Below, piece after piece: positions 2,185-11,083 of a DNA stretch of 64,000 nt (positions are counted from its first letter, which is position 1; each line of letters opens with the position of its first letter). A model generated the notes under the pieces. That model was not told the DNA's origin. It did not search any database and saw only the letters and a program-made list of their open reading frames with translations. The position numbers were made by a program, and so were the translations under genes. Location of the stretch: contig JAJYZB010000008.1 of the NCBI GenBank assembly GCA_021800275.1, positions 1 to 64,000 of the forward strand. The letters are read 5' to 3'. This DNA is from a bacterium. Lineage in GTDB: Bacteria > Vulcanimicrobiota > JABDET01.

Positions 2185-3552
2185 GTGAGATTTCTTTGGA
2201 TAACTGCAGGTATTTCCATCTTCATGTCAAAAAATTTTTCCATGCCGACCGATTACCAAAGGGCTGCTGATTATCTCGAAAATCTCCTGAAACTCAAAAC
2301 AATTGAGGAATGGAAAGAAAAACTTTCCCCCAAAATCCCTGCCCGCTGTGATCCTGACAGTCCTGAAAAAGAAAAAATGGAAATCGATCCAGGCTATTCA
2401 AAACAGGCTTTTGAAAATCGTTGGGAACAGATCCCCACTTCCCCTGAAATCAGAAATAAAATTGCAGATCCACAAAGTGAAGTGGATCTTCCACTTTACT
2501 CCAGGAACATCGAAAATTACATTGGAACAGTGAAAGTCCCTGTTGGAATAGTTGGTCCTCTTCGGGTCAACGGACTTTTTGCTCAGGGAGATTATTATGT
2601 CCCTCTTGCCACAACTGAGGCAGCTCTTGTGGCTTCTTATGCCAGAGGCTCAAGACTGATTCGAGAAGCTGGCGGCTGCACAGCTCTCCTCTTAAATGAA
2701 GGGATCTCCAGATCCCCTGGATTCGTTTTTGAAAATTTGATTCAGATCGGAGAATTCGCGGCATGGGCTCGAAAAAACATCGAGAACTTCAAAATTGAAG
2801 CGGAAAAAACCACAGCCCATGGGAAACTGATTGATGGGAAGATCACCATTGAAGGAAATCATGTTTTCTTGAATTTTGAATTTTCTACTGGGGATGCTTC
2901 AGGTCAAAATATGGCGACCCTTGCGGCAAATGCAATCTACCAGTACATCCTTAAAAAGACTCCTGTTAAACCCACAGCCCATTTTCTAGAGGCAAACTTT
3001 TCAGGGGACAAAAAAGCCAGCGCCCTCTCATTTCTATCAGTTCGAGGAAAAAAAGTGACAGCAGAAGCAGTCCTCCCTGCAAATCTTGTGCAAAGACATC
3101 TGAACACCTCTCCTGAACAAATGGCAGCCTATTACCGGATCTCTTCAGCAGGATCTGTTTTAAGCGGAGCCATGGGGATCCAGGGACATTATGCCAATGC
3201 CCTTGCCGCTTTTTATATTGCGACAGGACAGGATGCTGCCTGTGTTTCAGAATCATCCGTTGGTCTCTCAAGATTTGAGATTACAAAAAAAGGAGATCTC
3301 TATGCTTCAGCCACTCTCCCAAACCTCATGGTTGGATCTATTGGGGGTGGAACAGGACTCCCCAGTCAGAACGCCTGTCTCAAGCTGCTGAAACTTCCCA
3401 TAAACGACAGCTCCAGGGCAGCCGCAGAAATCTGCGCAGCTCTCTGCTTAGCAGGGGAACTCTCTATTATCGGAGCCCTTTCCTCAGGGGATTTTAGCAG
3501 GGCTCATGAGCTGCTCTCCCGCCGCAAAAAGAAAAAGATTAAGGAGAGTTAA
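2185..3552 (+). CDS. Hydroxymethylglutaryl-CoA reductase
   Basis: HMG-CoA reductase makes mevalonate from HMG-CoA with NAD(P)H. Counting from the GTG at 2185, the sequence shows ENYIGTVKVPVGIVGPL (residues 110-126), the catalytic Glu in ATTEAALVAS (E145), the nucleotide-binding GDASGQNMAT (236-245), the catalytic Lys in SGDKKAS (276/277), the Asp in GQDAACVSESS (D350) and the C-terminal catalytic His in RAHELLSR (H441). All key residues are present. No N-terminal membrane domain is seen. The start is uncertain: ATG at 2224 (MSKNFS) or 2242 (MPTDYQ) look more protein-like than the GTG, and none has a strong ribosome binding site. The stop abuts the next gene's ATG, so this is the first gene of a five-gene operon. 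No other mevalonate-pathway gene lies in the window. Confidence 0.95.
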   Translation: MRFLWITAGISIFMSKNFSMPTDYQRAADYLENLLKLKTIEEWKEKLSPKIPARCDPDSPEKEKMEIDPGYSKQAFENRWEQIPTSPEIRNKIADPQSEVDLPLYSRNIENYIGTVKVPVGIVGPLRVNGLFAQGDYYVPLATTEAALVASYARGSRLIREAGGCTALLLNEGISRSPGFVFENLIQIGEFAAWARKNIENFKIEAEKTTAHGKLIDGKITIEGNHVFLNFEFSTGDASGQNMATLAANAIYQYILKKTPVKPTAHFLEANFSGDKKASALSFLSVRGKKVTAEAVLPANLVQRHLNTSPEQMAAYYRISSAGSVLSGAMGIQGHYANALAAFYIATGQDAACVSESSVGLSRFEITKKGDLYASATLPNLMVGSIGGGTGLPSQNACLKLLKLPINDSSRAAAEICAALCLAGELSIIGALSSGDFSRAHELLSRRKKKKIKES

Positions 3553-4461
3553 ATGAACCGCTGGTGGGTCTATCAGCGAGAGCGCTTCCCTATTTTTCAG
3601 CATGGACCATTAATAGCGGCTTTCAGCATTTCAGCAATCTGTTTCTCATCTCTTCTTAGAAATAATATCAATGTTTCTCATCCCTCTAAATTTTTAGTAG
3701 GGTTTATCACTGCCTTCATTTTTTTTCTGCAGCTTAGACTGGCGGATGAGTTCAAAGATTTTGAAGAGGACAGCAAATTCAGACCTTACCGCCCTGTTCC
3801 CCGCGGCCTGGTTAAATTGAAAGAACTGGCTGTCATCGGCTGCATGGGAGCAGTCATTCAATTAGGACTTGCCCTGTGGTACTATCCCCCACTCTTTTTT
3901 ATTCTGCTTCTAGCCTGGACCTATTTAGTCCTGATGACAAAAGAATTTTTCATCAGAAACTGGATCAAAAAACAGCCTTTAATTTACATGCTTTCTCACA
4001 TGGCTATTGTGCCAATCGTAGATTTCTATACAACCTCCTGCGACTGGCGGCCTGTAGAATCCCATCCCCCTCAAGGGCTTCCCTGGTTCATTGCCGCCAG
4101 TTATTTTAATGGCTTAGTTGTAGAGCTTGGAAGAAAGATTCGTTCAGAGGATCAAGAAGAAAAAGGAGTGGAAACCTATACTTTTCTCTGGGGAAGATCC
4201 AGGGCCATTTCAGCCTGGATCTCAGCCATGATCCTGACAGCTTTCTGTGGAACTATGGCTGCCAGAGAACTCCATTTTGCTCTACCCGTTCTTTTCATTC
4301 TCTCCCTGGTTTTTCTCGCCGCTTTTATTTCTTCCATTCGTTTTCTCCTCAACCCTTCAGCTCAGAACGCAAATAAAATTCAGCCTTTGACAGGAATCTG
4401 GACTCTTGTTTTTTATTTAAGCATAGGCGCCATCCCTTTTATCTGGCGCCACATGGGTTAA
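3553..4461 (+). CDS. UbiA-family membrane prenyltransferase
   Basis: A 302-residue integral membrane protein with about eight hydrophobic segments. UbiA enzymes move a polyprenyl group from its diphosphate to an aromatic ring, tetrapyrrole or glycerol-phosphate acceptor, using two Asp-rich motifs. Motif 1 is seen as RLADEFKDFEEDSKFRPYRP followed by VPRGLV (residues 62-86). Motif 2 is in ELGRKIRSEDQEEKGVETYT (191-210). The DEFKDxxxD and RPVPRGLV pattern differs from the NDxxDxxxD form of ubiquinone and menaquinone enzymes, so the acceptor is probably not a quinone ring. The ATG directly follows the HMG-CoA reductase stop, implying translational coupling. Together with the reductase and the prenol-kinase-like gene downstream, this suggests prenyl-lipid chemistry. 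Substrate unknown. Confidence 0.9.
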   Translation: MNRWWVYQRERFPIFQHGPLIAAFSISAICFSSLLRNNINVSHPSKFLVGFITAFIFFLQLRLADEFKDFEEDSKFRPYRPVPRGLVKLKELAVIGCMGAVIQLGLALWYYPPLFFILLLAWTYLVLMTKEFFIRNWIKKQPLIYMLSHMAIVPIVDFYTTSCDWRPVESHPPQGLPWFIAASYFNGLVVELGRKIRSEDQEEKGVETYTFLWGRSRAISAWISAMILTAFCGTMAARELHFALPVLFILSLVFLAAFISSIRFLLNPSAQNANKIQPLTGIWTLVFYLSIGAIPFIWRHMG

Positions 4462-4465
4462 ATTC

Positions 4466-7162
4466 ATGGACAGTATCACTGCAGGCAGCAGAATCATTAC
4501 CAGCAGCAGTATCAATGCCAGCGGAAATGACATGGTTCTGAATCTCCTGGGAGGAAAAGCAAAATCCCTTGCCACTCTCTCAAAAGCAGGATTTCCTGTT
4601 CCCGAGTGGTTCGTAGTAACCCCTTCTGCCTTTTATGATTTACTGCCTCCCGAAAAAAAGATAGAACTGGAAAAAGCGAAAAGTGAAACAGCAGCAAAAA
4701 ATCCTCTTGATTCTCTTGAGATCAAAGAAAATCTACTCAAACTGCTTCAGAAAACCGCTGAAATCATATTTTTGAACAAAGAAAAAATGGCTGTCCGCTC
4801 CTCTGCATCAGATGAGGATGGAATGCTCAACTCTTTTGCTGGACAGCTTGAAACTTACCTGGATATCTCTCTAGAAGAGCTTCCCGAAAAAATCATCCAG
4901 GTCTGGCGTTCCGGCTTTACTGAAAAAGTTTACGCTTATTTTGCCGAAAGAAAAATCCCCCATCCGCCAACCCCTCCTGCTGTTCTGGTGCAGAAAATGA
5001 TTAAAAGCAGTGCAGCAGGAGTGGCATTCAGCGCAGATCCTGTTACAGGCAGACGTGGAACTGCTGTGGTCAGCTCTGTTCCTGGACTTGGAACTTCCCT
5101 GGTTTCAGGGGAATGTGATGCAGATACCTGGCACATCAATGAAAAAAGTGAGATTATTTCCCGCCAGATCCCTTCCAAAAAAACAATGCACATTGGGAAT
5201 GGACAATCAACCCCAGTCCCTCAAGAAAAGCAGGACGCCCCTTCTCTCAATGAAGAGCAAGTTCTTGAAGTGGCAAAACTAGCGCGTCAATGTGAAAATT
5301 TTTTTGGAATGCCGCAGGATATCGAATGGGCTTATGAATCAGGAAAACTCTATCTTCTGCAGTCGCGACCCATTACTTCATTGTTTAACATGCCTGATCC
5401 AGATGGAATCCTGAACGTTTGGGACAACAGCAATATTGCTGAAAGTTATGGTGGAGTAACAACCCCTCTTACTTTTTCTTTTGCCCGAAAAGCGTATGAA
5501 GGCGTTTATCAAGAGTTCTGCAGAATCATGGGGGTTTCGCAAAAGAACATCGAATCCAATGCAGCGGTATTTCGCTGCATGCTCGGGTTGATTCAAGGAC
5601 GACTTTATTACAATCTTCTAAACTGGTACCGCCTCCTTGCCATGCTTCCGGGATTTAAAATGAACAGAGGATTTATGGAACAGATGATGGGAGTAAAAGA
5701 AGCTCTCCCTGAAAAAATCGCAGAAGAGATCGGAAAACCGACTCGCGGACAGCGTTTTCGGGATGCAGTCCATTTTCTTTCGAGTTTTCTCGGGCTCGGA
5801 TATAATTATTTCGCTTTAGAGAAAAAAAATCAATCCTTTTACAAAAGACTTGACCAGGCTCTTGGAACAGGAAGGCCAAACTTATCCCGGCTGAGTGTGG
5901 ATGAACTTTCGCTAGAGTATCGCGATCTTGAAAAAAAACTGCTTAAAAAATGGGATGCTCCTTTGATCAACGATTTTTTTGCCATGATGTTTTTCGGAAT
6001 TTTAAAAAAACTTTCTGTTTCATGGTGTGGTGATAAAGAAGGAACTCTTCAAAACGACCTGGTTTCAGGGGAGGGAAACATGATCAGCAGAGAACCTGCT
6101 GAAAGGGTGAAAGCCATGGCGCAAACCGCTGCTCAAGACAAGCCATTTGCCGCCCTCCTTCAAAATAGAACACTTGAGGAGATCACAGCAGCAATTCCAA
6201 AACATCCCGAGTTTCAAAAAGCTTATGAATCTTACCTTGAAAAATTCGGGGACCGCTGCACAGATGAACTGAAACTTGAAAGTCTAACTCTTTTTGACAA
6301 TCCCCTCCCCCTGCTGCGCTCTATTGGAGAACTAGCACTGAATGGGAAACCCATCATTCAACATGAGGAAACTAACCTGCGCAAAAAAGCGGAAGCTCTT
6401 GTAAAAAATTCTTTTTCAGGCAAACCCTTCAAACAGTTTTTTTTCCATCTGGTTTTAAAAAATGCCAGAAGCAGAGTTAGAGATAGAGAAAATCTGAGAT
6501 TCGAAAGAACAAGAGTTTTTGGAAGAGTCAGAAACATTTTTTCGGAGATTGGAAAACGCCTTTATTCCTTTAACCTTCTTGAAAACTCAAGAGACGTTTT
6601 TTATCTTGAGCTTGAGGAGATCTTCGGCTTTATGGAAGGCACATCCAGCGCCACTGATTTAAAGGGACTTGTTTCACTTCGAAAAAAAGAGTTTGAAAAT
6701 TACGCCTCAATGCCTCCTCCCCCCAATCGCTTTGAAACTCGCGGAATGGTTTATCAAGGAAACTCTTTCACTCCTAAAACCACTTCTGTGGCGCAAAATG
6801 GAGATTCAAAAAAAGGAATTGGATGCTGCCCAGGAATTATCAGAGCAAAAATTCAAATTGTAAAAAATCCTCAAGAAACTCGAGTAATTTCAGGAAAGAT
6901 TTTTGCGGCTGAAAGAACGGATCCCAGTTGGATCATGATCTTCCCTCTTGCCCGAGGAGTTCTTGTGGAACGAGGCAGCCTTCTTTCTCATTCTGCAATT
7001 GTGGCGCGGGAGATGGGAATCCCAACCATTGTTTCTATTGATGGGTTAATGGGATGGCTGCAGGATGGGGATGAAGTGGAAATGGATGGAAAAAGCGGAA
7101 TCGTGAGAAAATTGACCCCTCAAGAAATCTCGAAAATGGAAAAAAATGAAATCAGAGATTGA
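4466..7162 (+). CDS. PEP-synthase-like phosphotransferase, rifampin-phosphotransferase-type layout
   Basis: The 898-residue protein has an N-terminal PPDK-type ATP-grasp domain: GGKAKSLATLSKAGFPVP at residues 29-46, AVRSSASDEDG...SFAGQLETYL at 109-132, SSAAGVAFSADPVTGRRG near 180-197, and YLLQSRPIT near 296-304. A long middle region of about 430 residues has no motif I recognise. The C-terminal swivelling phosphohistidine domain has LSHSAIVAREMGIPTIVS, with the phospho-acceptor His at 842. The pyruvate-binding TIM barrel of true PEP synthase and PPDK is missing. This order matches rifampin phosphotransferase (RPH), which passes the ATP beta-phosphate to a hydroxyl of an acceptor held by the middle domain. 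The neighbours suggest a lipid or prenol hydroxyl here (inference). The first ~22 residues are Ser/Thr-rich, and ATG at 4532 is an alternative start. It overlaps the next gene by 17 bp. Confidence 0.85.
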   Translation: MDSITAGSRIITSSSINASGNDMVLNLLGGKAKSLATLSKAGFPVPEWFVVTPSAFYDLLPPEKKIELEKAKSETAAKNPLDSLEIKENLLKLLQKTAEIIFLNKEKMAVRSSASDEDGMLNSFAGQLETYLDISLEELPEKIIQVWRSGFTEKVYAYFAERKIPHPPTPPAVLVQKMIKSSAAGVAFSADPVTGRRGTAVVSSVPGLGTSLVSGECDADTWHINEKSEIISRQIPSKKTMHIGNGQSTPVPQEKQDAPSLNEEQVLEVAKLARQCENFFGMPQDIEWAYESGKLYLLQSRPITSLFNMPDPDGILNVWDNSNIAESYGGVTTPLTFSFARKAYEGVYQEFCRIMGVSQKNIESNAAVFRCMLGLIQGRLYYNLLNWYRLLAMLPGFKMNRGFMEQMMGVKEALPEKIAEEIGKPTRGQRFRDAVHFLSSFLGLGYNYFALEKKNQSFYKRLDQALGTGRPNLSRLSVDELSLEYRDLEKKLLKKWDAPLINDFFAMMFFGILKKLSVSWCGDKEGTLQNDLVSGEGNMISREPAERVKAMAQTAAQDKPFAALLQNRTLEEITAAIPKHPEFQKAYESYLEKFGDRCTDELKLESLTLFDNPLPLLRSIGELALNGKPIIQHEETNLRKKAEALVKNSFSGKPFKQFFFHLVLKNARSRVRDRENLRFERTRVFGRVRNIFSEIGKRLYSFNLLENSRDVFYLELEEIFGFMEGTSSATDLKGLVSLRKKEFENYASMPPPPNRFETRGMVYQGNSFTPKTTSVAQNGDSKKGIGCCPGIIRAKIQIVKNPQETRVISGKIFAAERTDPSWIMIFPLARGVLVERGSLLSHSAIVAREMGIPTIVSIDGLMGWLQDGDEVEMDGKSGIVRKLTPQEISKMEKNEIRD

Positions 7163-8243
7163 AGAAAAAGCAAATTTTTCAGAGATCCGCTATGCTCAAT
7201 GCTGGGAAGATGCGGACGTTCTTCTTGAAGCTCTTGACGTCAAACCCGGGGACAGGTGTGTTTCTATTGCATCTGCAGGGGACAACACCCTTGCTCTTCT
7301 TTCAAAAAAACCGGCTGAAGTTTTCGCGCTTGATCTAAACAGCTCCCAATTAGCCTGTCTCGAGCTTCGAGCCGCCGCTTACCGCACCCTTTCCCATGAA
7401 GAGCTTCTGATCCTTGTGGGCTCAAAAGAAGGAAAGGAAAGACTTGAGCTTTACAACCGCGCTAAACCGTTTCTTTCTGAAGAAGTAAAACGTTACTGGG
7501 ATTCTCACCTGGATGGAATAAAACAAGGTATTGGAAAGATCGGAAAATTTGAGCGGTACCTCTCCCTTTTTCGAACCAAAATTCTTCCCTGTATCCATTC
7601 TCAAAAAACGATCTCGTTTTTTCTTGAGAATCATGAAAAAAAAGAAAGAGAAAATTTTTACAAAAAAAGATGGGACAACTGGAAGTGGAGAATCTTTTTC
7701 AAAATCTTCTTTTCCCGGTTTGTCATGGGAAAACTGGGGAGAGATCCCAGCTTTTTTGAGTATGTAAAACACGATGTTCCAGTTCGAATTTTAGCAAGAG
7801 CCAGGCATGCGTTCGTAGAATTGAACCCGTATGAAAATCCTTATTTACAGTGGATTCTGACGGAAAATCATAAAACTTCGCTCCCTTATGCTCTGCGTCC
7901 CGAAAATTTCGAATCGATCCGAGAAAACCTGGATGCCCTTAAAATTCGACGATCTTCCCTTGAAAAATTCTTAGAGTCCAGCAGCGAGAAAAGCATCAAC
8001 AGATTCAACTTAAGCGATATTTTCGAGTACATGTCCTTTCAAAACTATACCCAGCTACTAGAAAAAATCATTAAAGCTGGAAAGCCAGGGAGCAGGCTTG
8101 TTTACTGGAATATGATGGTTTTACGTAAAAAACCAGAAACACTCTCCACTCAATTGAAAGAACTTGAAAATCTTGCGCGGGAACTCCATTTAAAAGATAA
8201 GACATTTTTTTACAGTGGACTTGCAGTAGAAGAGATTATCTAA
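7146..8243 (+). CDS. DUF3419 / BtaA-like SAM-dependent aminocarboxypropyl transferase
   Basis: A 365-residue cytoplasmic protein of the DUF3419 family. Its best-known member, BtaA, transfers the 3-amino-3-carboxypropyl group of S-adenosylmethionine to diacylglycerol in betaine-lipid synthesis. Hallmarks are FSEIRYAQCWEDADVLLEAL near residue 10, the SAM-site segment CVSIASAGDNTLALL (about 38-52), VFALDLNSSQLACLELRAAA just after, and the C-terminal SDIFEYMS...GSRLVYWNMM block. The partner methyltransferase BtaB is absent next to it, so the product may be a homoserine-type lipid that is not trimethylated, or another acceptor may be used. The start lies inside the 3' end of the preceding gene, and 21 bp separate it from the following membrane gene. 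Family call firm; substrate inferred. Confidence 0.85.
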   Translation: MKSEIEEKANFSEIRYAQCWEDADVLLEALDVKPGDRCVSIASAGDNTLALLSKKPAEVFALDLNSSQLACLELRAAAYRTLSHEELLILVGSKEGKERLELYNRAKPFLSEEVKRYWDSHLDGIKQGIGKIGKFERYLSLFRTKILPCIHSQKTISFFLENHEKKERENFYKKRWDNWKWRIFFKIFFSRFVMGKLGRDPSFFEYVKHDVPVRILARARHAFVELNPYENPYLQWILTENHKTSLPYALRPENFESIRENLDALKIRRSSLEKFLESSSEKSINRFNLSDIFEYMSFQNYTQLLEKIIKAGKPGSRLVYWNMMVLRKKPETLSTQLKELENLARELHLKDKTFFYSGLAVEEII

Positions 8244-8264
8244 AAAAAACGGAATGACAGAAAA

Positions 8265-9599
8265 ATGGCAAAAATATTGGAAATGAAAGAAAATTGGATT
8301 GGAATTCTGCTGATTCTCCTTTTTTTAGCTTCTACCGCTCTTCTTATTTTGTTTCTGCAGAATCGCGGCAGACTTTCACCTGAATGGAGCAGAAAACTTC
8401 TGCACATTTCCAGCGGACTGGCATCTCTGAGTTTTCCTTTCATCTTTACGCAGAACTGGCCTGTTTTTGTCATTTCAGGAGGAGGGATCATTTTCGTTCT
8501 CTGCGTGAAAAAAATTTCATCTTTAAAAAAAAGCATTGGGAAAATCACAGGGAGTGTTTCCAGAAAATCTGAAGGTGAAATTTTTTTCCCCATAGGAACT
8601 GCAGTCCTTTTCTGGCTTTCTAAAGGAAACACAGTTCTCTACATCATTCCCCTGTTGATTCTAACTTTTGCCGACACTGCTGCTGCCCTGATCGGCATCT
8701 TTTATGGGACCTTTAAATATGATGCAACAGGGGGTAAAAAAAGCATGGAAGGCTCAATGGCGTTTTTTCTAACAGCCTTTTTCAGCGCCCATATTCCCCT
8801 GCTTGTTTTCACAAACACAGGTAGAATTCAGACCCTGTTGATTTCTGCCCTCCTTGGATTCTTCCTCATGATTGTGGAAGCGGTCTCATGGGATGGAATT
8901 GACAACCTGTTCATCCCTTTGGCAGGTTTTTTCCTTCTGAAAGCATTTCTGCAAATGACTCTTCCTGGACTTGCTGCTAGTCTTGCTGCAACAGCTTTCC
9001 TGGCAGCAGCAGCCCTTTTCCTGAAAAGGCAAAGCATTCTGAACACTGGCGCCCTGATGGGCGCTGTTCTGGCAGCTTATCTCTGCTGGTTTATTGGAGG
9101 AATTCAATGGATCCTTGTGCTGTTTATTTTTTTTGCGGCTTATCTTTTTCTGACCCCAAAATCTAAAGAGGATTGGAAACACCATTATAATGTTCACTCT
9201 GTTTTAAGCACGTGCGGTTCAGGGCTTTTATGGCTGCTGCTCTCAAGCCATTTTAAACACCCTGATTATTTGTACCCTTTCACTGCTTCTTTGTCTTCGC
9301 AGCTTGCCATGATCTCCACAGCTAGACAAATAAGGACACAGTCAAAACTCTCCTTGACTGGAAAAATCATTTTAAGCATCCTGGAAGGATGGCTCCTCAT
9401 GCTCATTCCCATCTTTATTTTACGAGGAAGCCATACAGCCGCGCAACTCATTTTATCTTTTGTCGGAACCAGCGCTTCAGCCGCAGCATTTTATTTCACC
9501 CAGCCTGATCTGGAACAGTATCCAGAAGACACCTCCAGATGGATGCGCCAATTCCTGTTTGGCTTGCTGGCTTCACTCATAGATTTCTGGGCAGTTTGA
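8265..9599 (+). CDS. Polytopic fusion: phytol/dolichol-kinase-like domain plus DUF92 (VTE6-like) domain
   Basis: A 444-residue protein with about 12 hydrophobic segments. The N-terminal half carries motifs of the phosphatidate cytidylyltransferase/dolichol kinase/VTE5 family: SRKLLHISSGL (about 42-52), LTFADTAAALIGIFYG...KYDATGGKKSMEGSMAFF (about 132-167), and EAVSWDGIDNLFIPL (about 205-219). The C-terminal half, from about residue 260 (LNTGALMGAVLAAYLCWFIGGIQW), resembles DUF92/TMEM19, the family of the plant phytyl-phosphate kinase VTE6, but is divergent. VTE5 and VTE6 act in sequence in plants (prenol to prenyl-P to prenyl-PP), so the fusion would make prenyl diphosphate, the donor of the operon's UbiA enzyme. 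The N-terminal assignment is good; the DUF92 part is moderate. ATG at 8283 is an alternative start. This is the last gene of the operon. Confidence 0.75.
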   Translation: MAKILEMKENWIGILLILLFLASTALLILFLQNRGRLSPEWSRKLLHISSGLASLSFPFIFTQNWPVFVISGGGIIFVLCVKKISSLKKSIGKITGSVSRKSEGEIFFPIGTAVLFWLSKGNTVLYIIPLLILTFADTAAALIGIFYGTFKYDATGGKKSMEGSMAFFLTAFFSAHIPLLVFTNTGRIQTLLISALLGFFLMIVEAVSWDGIDNLFIPLAGFFLLKAFLQMTLPGLAASLAATAFLAAAALFLKRQSILNTGALMGAVLAAYLCWFIGGIQWILVLFIFFAAYLFLTPKSKEDWKHHYNVHSVLSTCGSGLLWLLLSSHFKHPDYLYPFTASLSSQLAMISTARQIRTQSKLSLTGKIILSILEGWLLMLIPIFILRGSHTAAQLILSFVGTSASAAAFYFTQPDLEQYPEDTSRWMRQFLFGLLASLIDFWAV

Positions 9600-9952: not shown

Positions 9953-11083
9953 ATGGGCGGCTCAGGCGGATTTGGTAAACTCACTAATCCACTACCTTTA
10001 CCCGTACCCCCTGATTTTAATAAAAAACCTAAAGTGTATGACACAGGAAAAGACCCAACAGCTAAAGAGTTTGGAAAAACACAAGAGGTTGCTGTTTATA
10101 CAGCCACACAAACAGGAACCATAACTGACCCCAAAACACACAAAACGATCCCTCGTCCTGTATTACCAGAACAGCAGCAAACAGATTCAAACGCAGCCCA
10201 TCAAATACTCGATACCTTTAACCATGACAACCAGCAAATTGCAAATGATTTTGGGCAGAAAAAAATTACCGATTTTAATGTCTATGTAGAACCAGCTCCA
10301 CCTTCCAGTCTTCTAGGTGGGGGGTATGGGGCAAGCCATCCCTATCCTCAAGTTGGAGAACCCCAGCATTATGACGATAATATCACAGTAGATGTCAATG
10401 CGCCAACTTCTTTTTCAAATGCCTCTCCTTCAGGAAAACCAACCCTCGGAGGGCCAAATGAAGCTCCTGAACTGACAGATGCAGAAGTTGTGGAAAGTTA
10501 TGAAGATCGAACAAAAAATTGGAATGCGGGACTGACGAATGGTGAATCCCTCAGCCGAGCGATCTCTTTTGAACTGCAGCCTGCAGGAGGTAAAGATCCT
10601 AACCTAAGCACTGATCCTATGCAAACCTGGTGGAAAAATGGGCACAAAGATTATATCAACGGAAATCCCGATTTTACTAAAAGCCAGCCAACTAACAAAG
10701 AAGGATTTCAGTTTGATGAATACGGAGGGATCCAGAACAAAACACAAGCCAGTGACAGAAACCCCAATAGCAATGGGTCCGGAACCCTTTTTCTCATGTA
10801 CCTCCACAATAAACTAGGATACAACTGGCAGCAGATCACTCATGCAAAAGGGAACACGCTTGGAGAGAAATACCAAAGTTTAACTGGAATCAGCGGGCAG
10901 CAGGGATTCCAGAATTTTCTGAAAGCTCTCCCGACTAAAAAACTGCCCAATGGTCAGACTGAGTTAAATCTGCCTCAAGATGGAAATCCATTTCAAACAA
11001 AACCCAACCCTTTAGATAAAGTAAAAAAAGCGGTCTCCTACGCAGTGGCTCGGATAAAAAACTTTTTCTCAACTCTCTTCTAA
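9953..11083 (+). CDS. Hypothetical protein with a conserved C-terminal domain of unknown function
   Basis: A 376-residue protein starting MGGSGGFGKL, with a strong AGGAGG ribosome binding site and no signal peptide. Residues 1-190 are Pro/Gln/Asn/Thr-rich and probably disordered. Residues about 195-345 look folded: NGESLSRAISFELQP, then WWKNGHKDYINGNPDFT, DRNPNSNGSGTLFLMYLHNK and LGYNWQQITHAKGNTLGEKYQSLTG. From memory, this block order recurs in large uncharacterised bacterial proteins (pattern G-x-LSR-x-x-x-x-EL-x-P ... LFL-x-x-L-x-x-x-LGF-x-W ... TL-x-x-x-Y-x-x-LTG). I know no function for it. The tail (DKVKKAVSYAVARIKNFFSTLF) is a basic amphipathic helix. A signal-peptide-bearing WG-repeat gene follows after 2 bp, so the two may work together at the cell surface (inference). 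Confidence 0.75.
   Translation: MGGSGGFGKLTNPLPLPVPPDFNKKPKVYDTGKDPTAKEFGKTQEVAVYTATQTGTITDPKTHKTIPRPVLPEQQQTDSNAAHQILDTFNHDNQQIANDFGQKKITDFNVYVEPAPPSSLLGGGYGASHPYPQVGEPQHYDDNITVDVNAPTSFSNASPSGKPTLGGPNEAPELTDAEVVESYEDRTKNWNAGLTNGESLSRAISFELQPAGGKDPNLSTDPMQTWWKNGHKDYINGNPDFTKSQPTNKEGFQFDEYGGIQNKTQASDRNPNSNGSGTLFLMYLHNKLGYNWQQITHAKGNTLGEKYQSLTGISGQQGFQNFLKALPTKKLPNGQTELNLPQDGNPFQTKPNPLDKVKKAVSYAVARIKNFFSTLF

Follow-up and report, generated by a model that had tools for sequence, protein, structure and literature searches.

The window analysed here is a 64,000-nt stretch of contig JAJYZB010000008.1, of which positions 2185-9599 hold an operon of five genes coding for a 3-hydroxy-3-methylglutaryl-CoA (HMG-CoA) reductase-like protein (HMGR), a UbiA-superfamily prenyltransferase, a three-domain phosphotransferase resembling phosphoenolpyruvate (PEP) synthase (PPS-like), a DUF3419 protein and a membrane fusion protein (Table 1). 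We propose, with a little less than even confidence, that this operon encodes most of a dedicated seven-enzyme pathway whose product, as predicted from the enzyme families, would be an undescribed N-acylated, aminocarboxypropyl-bearing prenyl or alkyl amphiphile. That the seven families serve one shared pathway is, on the basis of their conservation, nearly certain. A preliminary description of this DNA had recognised the five families and their tight spacing, both of which are borne out by the open reading frame (ORF) calls and Pfam matches; the genes are co-directional and successive ones lie 0, 4 or 21 bp apart, except that the PPS-like and DUF3419 genes overlap by 17 bp. It also knew of no described pathway with this set, and we likewise found no published account of the five or the seven genes in the open-access literature, a scope outside which preprints and most subscription journals fall.

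When named genomes were scanned with the DUF3419 protein, 201 relatives were found and 80 loci obtained, spread over about 14 bacterial phyla according to record titles. The host groups are Planctomycetota, Cyanobacteriota, Pseudomonadota, Desulfobacterota-type bacteria, Verrucomicrobiota, Deinococcota (Trueperaceae), Chloroflexota, Gemmatimonadota, Bacteroidota/Rhodothermota, Acidobacteriota, Armatimonadota, Rokubacteria, Latescibacterota, Krumholzibacteriota and Actinomycetota; these labels may be wrong in part because most loci come from metagenome-assembled genomes (MAGs). The order HMGR-UbiA-PPS-DUF3419-fusion is seen again in most of the 80 loci. Gene content was counted in the 56 loci whose flanks reach at least 5 kb upstream and 4.5 kb downstream. 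Neighbours were clustered after masking the core genes, as antisense frames in G+C-rich loci otherwise swamp the clustering. The preliminary description had looked to co-occurrence of the five families in related genomes as its check, and all five, with the fusion counted by its kinase domain, lie together in 35 of the 56 loci in a nearly constant order. Two further genes, for a GNAT acyltransferase and an AMP-forming ligase, complete the set in 30 loci. Taken singly, PPS-like proteins are present in 52 loci, UbiA in 49, GNAT in 47, the ligase in 46, the kinase domain in 43 and HMGR in 39. The pairwise divergences of the seven families are correlated (r 0.66-0.94, versus at most 0.28 in 200 label permutations). 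Since the five families recur in most related loci and their divergences correlate, the arrangement of the operon is not due to chance.

The association also holds within a sample of 149 genomes from the window's own phylum. Close relatives of the DUF3419 protein occur in 10 of them, two further genomes having distant relatives only. The operon-type UbiA was found in all 10 and strong GNAT matches in 9 of the 10, while neither was found in any of the other 139. One genome of the window's genus was searched for HMGR, DUF3419, UbiA and GNAT, and all four were absent. The earlier claim of one functional set is upheld by the recurrence of the loci, the correlated divergences and the co-occurrence within the phylum; its five-gene set proved to be real and incomplete, as the GNAT and ligase genes also belong. 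The GNAT protein is about 325 aa long, carries its Pfam GNAT domain in the C-terminal third and gave no match in a profile search against the PDB. The ligase, of about 530 aa, is nearest to the PRK09274 acyl ligases and the OleC olefin beta-lactone synthetases, but it scores below the cut-offs of these families, and no OleA, OleB or OleD partner was seen in the cluster. Both genes follow the fusion gene in most loci and precede HMGR in those filed under Rhodothermota and Gemmatimonadota. In the window genome they form an overlapping pair on a separate contig (C12), away from the operon (374 bits for GNAT, 639 bits for the ligase), so this genome holds the full seven-gene set.

Some loci filed under different phyla encode proteins that are 83-87% identical in three families, which indicates either that the whole block was transferred together or that MAGs were mis-binned. 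In Roseinatronobacter sp. S2, a complete plasmid (L129, NZ_CP121116.1) carries UbiA-PPS-DUF3419-fusion followed by a hypothetical protein at the GNAT position and an AMP-binding protein. The best reading is that the pathway is horizontally mobile and has moved between phyla. Glycosyltransferase and lipopolysaccharide genes were also observed near the plasmid copy.

Table 1. Genes of the operon and domains of the fusion protein (positions in the window).
Feature	Position	Strand	Length and matches
HMG-CoA reductase-like (class I) reductase	2185..3552	+	455 aa; Pfam HMG-CoA_red E 3.5e-106
UbiA-superfamily membrane prenyltransferase	3553..4461	+	302 aa; Pfam UbiA PF01040 E 1.4e-14, above cut-off
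PEP-synthase/Rph/PigC-RedH-like three-domain phosphotransferase (PPS-like)	4466..7162	+	898 aa; PPDK_N 1.5e-62, PEP-utilizers 3.4e-20
DUF3419/BtaA-like SAM-binding protein, predicted 3-amino-3-carboxypropyl transferase	7146..8243	+	365 aa; PF11899 2.5e-71
Fusion protein, whole ORF	8265..9599	+	444 aa; no Pfam match above cut-off
Fusion N-terminal half, VTE5-like CTP-transferase-type membrane domain	8265..8975	+	about residues 1-237
Fusion C-terminal half, DUF92-like (VTE6-type) membrane domain	8976..9599	+	weak DUF92 match E 0.0057

The operon HMGR is homologous to class I HMG-CoA reductases over the full catalytic domain, and the window ORF keeps the catalytic residues E145, K276, D350 and H441 (human Glu559, Lys691, Asp767 and His866). 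Alignments with homologues begin only near residue 20 of this ORF, and for that reason translation more likely starts at an in-frame ATG, 2224 or 2242, than at the GTG of position 2185. The mevalonate synthesis that the preliminary description had assigned to this enzyme is contradicted by the genome content of 34 hosts. HMG-CoA synthase (PF08540) was found in none of them, with a control search positive in Bacillus subtilis, Lactococcus and two archaea; mevalonate kinase (TIGR00549) reached its cut-off in none of the 34 and in 5 of 14 controls; and Dxr, of the methylerythritol phosphate (MEP) pathway, was present in 33. The hosts thus lack the mevalonate pathway, and a canonical mevalonate role of HMGR was rejected. 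No second intact HMGR accompanies the operon copy in the genomes searched with PF00368, apart from one genome (G124) of the phylum search, and about 17 genomes keep the rest of the set yet have no HMGR at all. Compared with the structures of human, plant and archaeal enzymes, 44 of 44 operon HMGRs have Glu in place of human Ser684 (Glu269 in the window ORF), and Lys735 is not conserved; in the human enzyme both residues contact the carboxylate of HMG. HMGR is an optional member of the set with an altered substrate pocket.

The relationship of the DUF3419 protein to BtaA, suggested previously, was recovered in a full-length profile match (2.5e-42) to the BtaA that lies beside a methyltransferase in Rhizobium leguminosarum, with WED and SxGxN motifs in common. 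This homology predicts transfer of the 3-amino-3-carboxypropyl group of S-adenosylmethionine (SAM). The structural model is of high confidence (predicted local distance difference test score, pLDDT, 94) and its best fold matches, which are weak, are SAM methyltransferases; a profile search against the PDB gave no match. The open-access literature found on DUF3419 consists of betaine-lipid-type papers only. The operon differs from the BtaA/BtaB route to the betaine lipid diacylglyceryltrimethylhomoserine (DGTS) in that no BtaB-type methyltransferase recurs in the clusters and five or six other enzymes accompany DUF3419. In the btaA stretch of Sinorhizobium meliloti pSymB (L130:3001-4127), no gene is listed and our scan found no ORF of at least 250 aa matching the DUF3419 profile; a btaB-like methyltransferase is listed after it.

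The nearest solved relatives of the UbiA protein are chlorophyll synthase and digeranylgeranylglyceryl phosphate synthase, at E about 1e-4. Its first Asp-rich motif is kept as D65-E-x-K-D69-x3-D73, with D65, D69 and D73 invariant, and an alignment with chlorophyll synthase places an invariant R194-K195 where the second Asp-rich motif would stand. The PPS-like protein consists of an ATP-grasp N-domain, a middle domain of its own and a swivel domain. It shares ATP-grasp and phosphohistidine domains with rifampin phosphotransferase (Rph), PigC/RedH and PEP synthase, and the swivel His842 and the ATP-grasp residues are invariant. In contrast with these enzymes, its middle domain is distinct and its scores fall below every NCBIfam equivalog cut-off; moreover, no rifampin or prodigiosin genes were seen near the operon.

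Phytol kinase VTE5, phytyl-phosphate kinase VTE6 and a UbiA-type prenyltransferase together accomplish phytol salvage for tocopherol. The fusion protein would correspond to a VTE5-like kinase joined to a DUF92/VTE6-like domain, which agrees with its earlier description as prenol-kinase-like: it appears to be related to proteins of the phytol/polyprenol kinase type, plus DUF92. Six cyanobacterial genomes were searched with a profile of its N-terminal half, and each contains a matching protein of about 240 aa (1e-30 to 1e-35). These single-domain matches score weakly, just below or at the cut-off, against CTP_transf_1, and we take them, from size and motifs and with no named record among them, to be VTE5-type phytol kinases; NCBIfam gave no name for them. 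DUF92 was matched by Pfam in 12 of 47 fusion members (best 2.4e-4), the window protein reaching 16.5 bits against a cut-off of 27.5, and the DUF92-like half is missing from part of the relatives. The fusion model (pLDDT 93) has CDP-diacylglycerol synthase as its best fold match (probability 0.97, E 0.14), and a profile search against the PDB gave no match. The operon would resemble the salvage system in bringing VTE5-like and DUF92-like domains beside UbiA, but differs in the fusion of the two domains, in the altered second motif of UbiA and in the company of DUF3419, HMGR-like, Rph-like, GNAT and ligase proteins.

The activities predicted for the seven families could be combined as follows, with no order implied. 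The AMP-forming ligase would activate a carboxylic acid, and the HMGR-like enzyme would reduce an acyl thioester other than HMG-CoA to a primary alcohol at the expense of two NADPH. The VTE5-like domain would phosphorylate an alcohol with CTP and the DUF92-like domain would add a second phosphate; UbiA could move the resulting chain, or a stock prenyl diphosphate, onto an acceptor. Through its phosphohistidine, the Rph-like protein would phosphorylate or otherwise activate an intermediate for joining; the BtaA-like protein would attach a 3-amino-3-carboxypropyl group from SAM to a hydroxyl; and GNAT would acylate an amine, perhaps the one brought by the BtaA-like protein. HMGR and the kinase domain are linked across the 56 loci, with both in 38, neither in 12 and only one in 6 (Fisher P 1e-7, uncorrected for kinship), which fits an alcohol-supplying module in which HMGR makes the alcohol and the fusion phosphorylates it. 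In a bolder version, which we consider unlikely, the product would be a new class of bacterial amphiphile, a prenyl or alkyl chain whose SAM-derived aminocarboxypropyl group is N-acylated; a neofunctionalised HMGR might further convert it to an amino alcohol, and the result would resemble ceramide but be formed without serine.

Several observations weigh against this proposal. Many cyanobacterial and verrucomicrobial versions of the cluster are without HMGR and the fusion, so the reductase and kinase steps cannot be its core. Ordinary prenyl-diphosphate chemistry is not assured for UbiA because its second Asp-rich motif is gone, and the DUF3419 protein could use another group of SAM. The fold matches are weak. 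An Arg adjoins the lost Lys735 position in most operon HMGRs. Four class-I-like HMGRs of the same phylum that lie outside the operon all carry the GQN motif and lack Lys735, and Glu at position 684 occurs in one of the four as well. As the substitutions are in part shared by outsiders, they are only suggestive of a new substrate, and the GQN motif and Lys735 loss were withdrawn as marks of operon HMGRs. A wider group of HMGR-like proteins may be involved, given that outsiders share GQN, the loss of Lys735 and, once, Glu684. The outsiders themselves (L161, L162, L163 and L164) possibly form another orphan HMGR group.

Among the alternatives, the one that survives best, though we regard it as improbable, is a specialised metabolite in place of a membrane lipid: a small molecule that is secreted or used in signalling, such as an amino-acid derivative bearing a prenyl or acyl group. 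The PigC/RedH-like protein would then act as an ATP-dependent ligase. A patchy distribution, near-identical whole operons across phyla and the plasmid copy in Roseinatronobacter all speak for the metabolite reading, as do the scores of the PPS-like protein against prodigiosin ligases and the OleC/PRK09274 type of the AMP-forming enzyme. Variant clusters add further tailoring genes; the verrucomicrobial and filamentous cyanobacterial versions that lack HMGR and the fusion have other genes in their stead. Upstream of DUF3419, the verrucomicrobial versions (L033, L042, L052, L069) encode an aminotransferase-III/semialdehyde-dehydrogenase-like fusion, a second PPS-like protein and a SnoaL-like protein, and upstream of UbiA the filamentous cyanobacterial versions (L048, L051, L077, L091) encode a radical SAM/SPASM protein, a membrane protein of about 342 aa and a protein of about 150 aa. 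Yet the cluster has no recurring transporter, regulator or carrier protein, and those relatives of DUF3419 whose function is known produce membrane lipids.

Less probable again is a variant of homoserine- or betaine-type lipid synthesis, in which DUF3419 would act on diacylglycerol like BtaA and the other genes would alter the head group or stand in for its methylation. It draws on the full-length homology to BtaA with its common motifs and on the algae, in which the family tracks and predicts DGTS synthesis (PMC6642084). Against this, the clusters have no recurring BtaB-type methyltransferase, no part in DGTS synthesis is known for UbiA, HMGR or the two kinase-type proteins, and the operon protein is only about 25% identical to most DUF3419 proteins of rhizobial plasmids. 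We consider it quite doubtful that the operon merely converts free prenols back to prenyl diphosphates for attachment, with the remaining genes incidental: the placing of the VTE5-like and DUF92-like fusion next to UbiA does recall how plants and cyanobacteria salvage phytol for tocopherol, but DUF3419, GNAT, the ligase and HMGR would not be needed and yet diverge together with the rest, and the fusion is wholly absent from many versions. Finally, the original form of the prenyl-lipid idea, with HMGR supplying mevalonate for the prenyl units, has the intact catalytic residues in its favour and is very unlikely indeed given the gene content of the 34 hosts, the many genomes with the other genes but no HMGR, and the replacement of Ser684 by Glu in all operon HMGRs.

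The ORFs flanking the operon, at 1412-2053 on the minus strand (213 aa) and 9953-11083 on the plus strand (376 aa), have no Pfam match. Promoter and terminator scans of the region gave signals that were close to the shuffled background or exceeded it modestly, and they were not used as evidence.

If the proposed amphiphile pathway is correct, cyanobacteria, planctomycetes, gammaproteobacteria, Deinococcota, Chloroflexota and many other bacteria would make an overlooked lipid or metabolite, and the annotated "HMG-CoA reductase" of these MEP-only bacteria would be a different reductase. HMGR alone is unsafe evidence for a mevalonate pathway. Named isolates, among them Methylomonas sp. SURF-1, Alkalilimnicola ehrlichii AK92, Microcoleus sp. 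FACHB-1515, Calothrix strains and Roseinatronobacter sp. S2, make the pathway directly testable.

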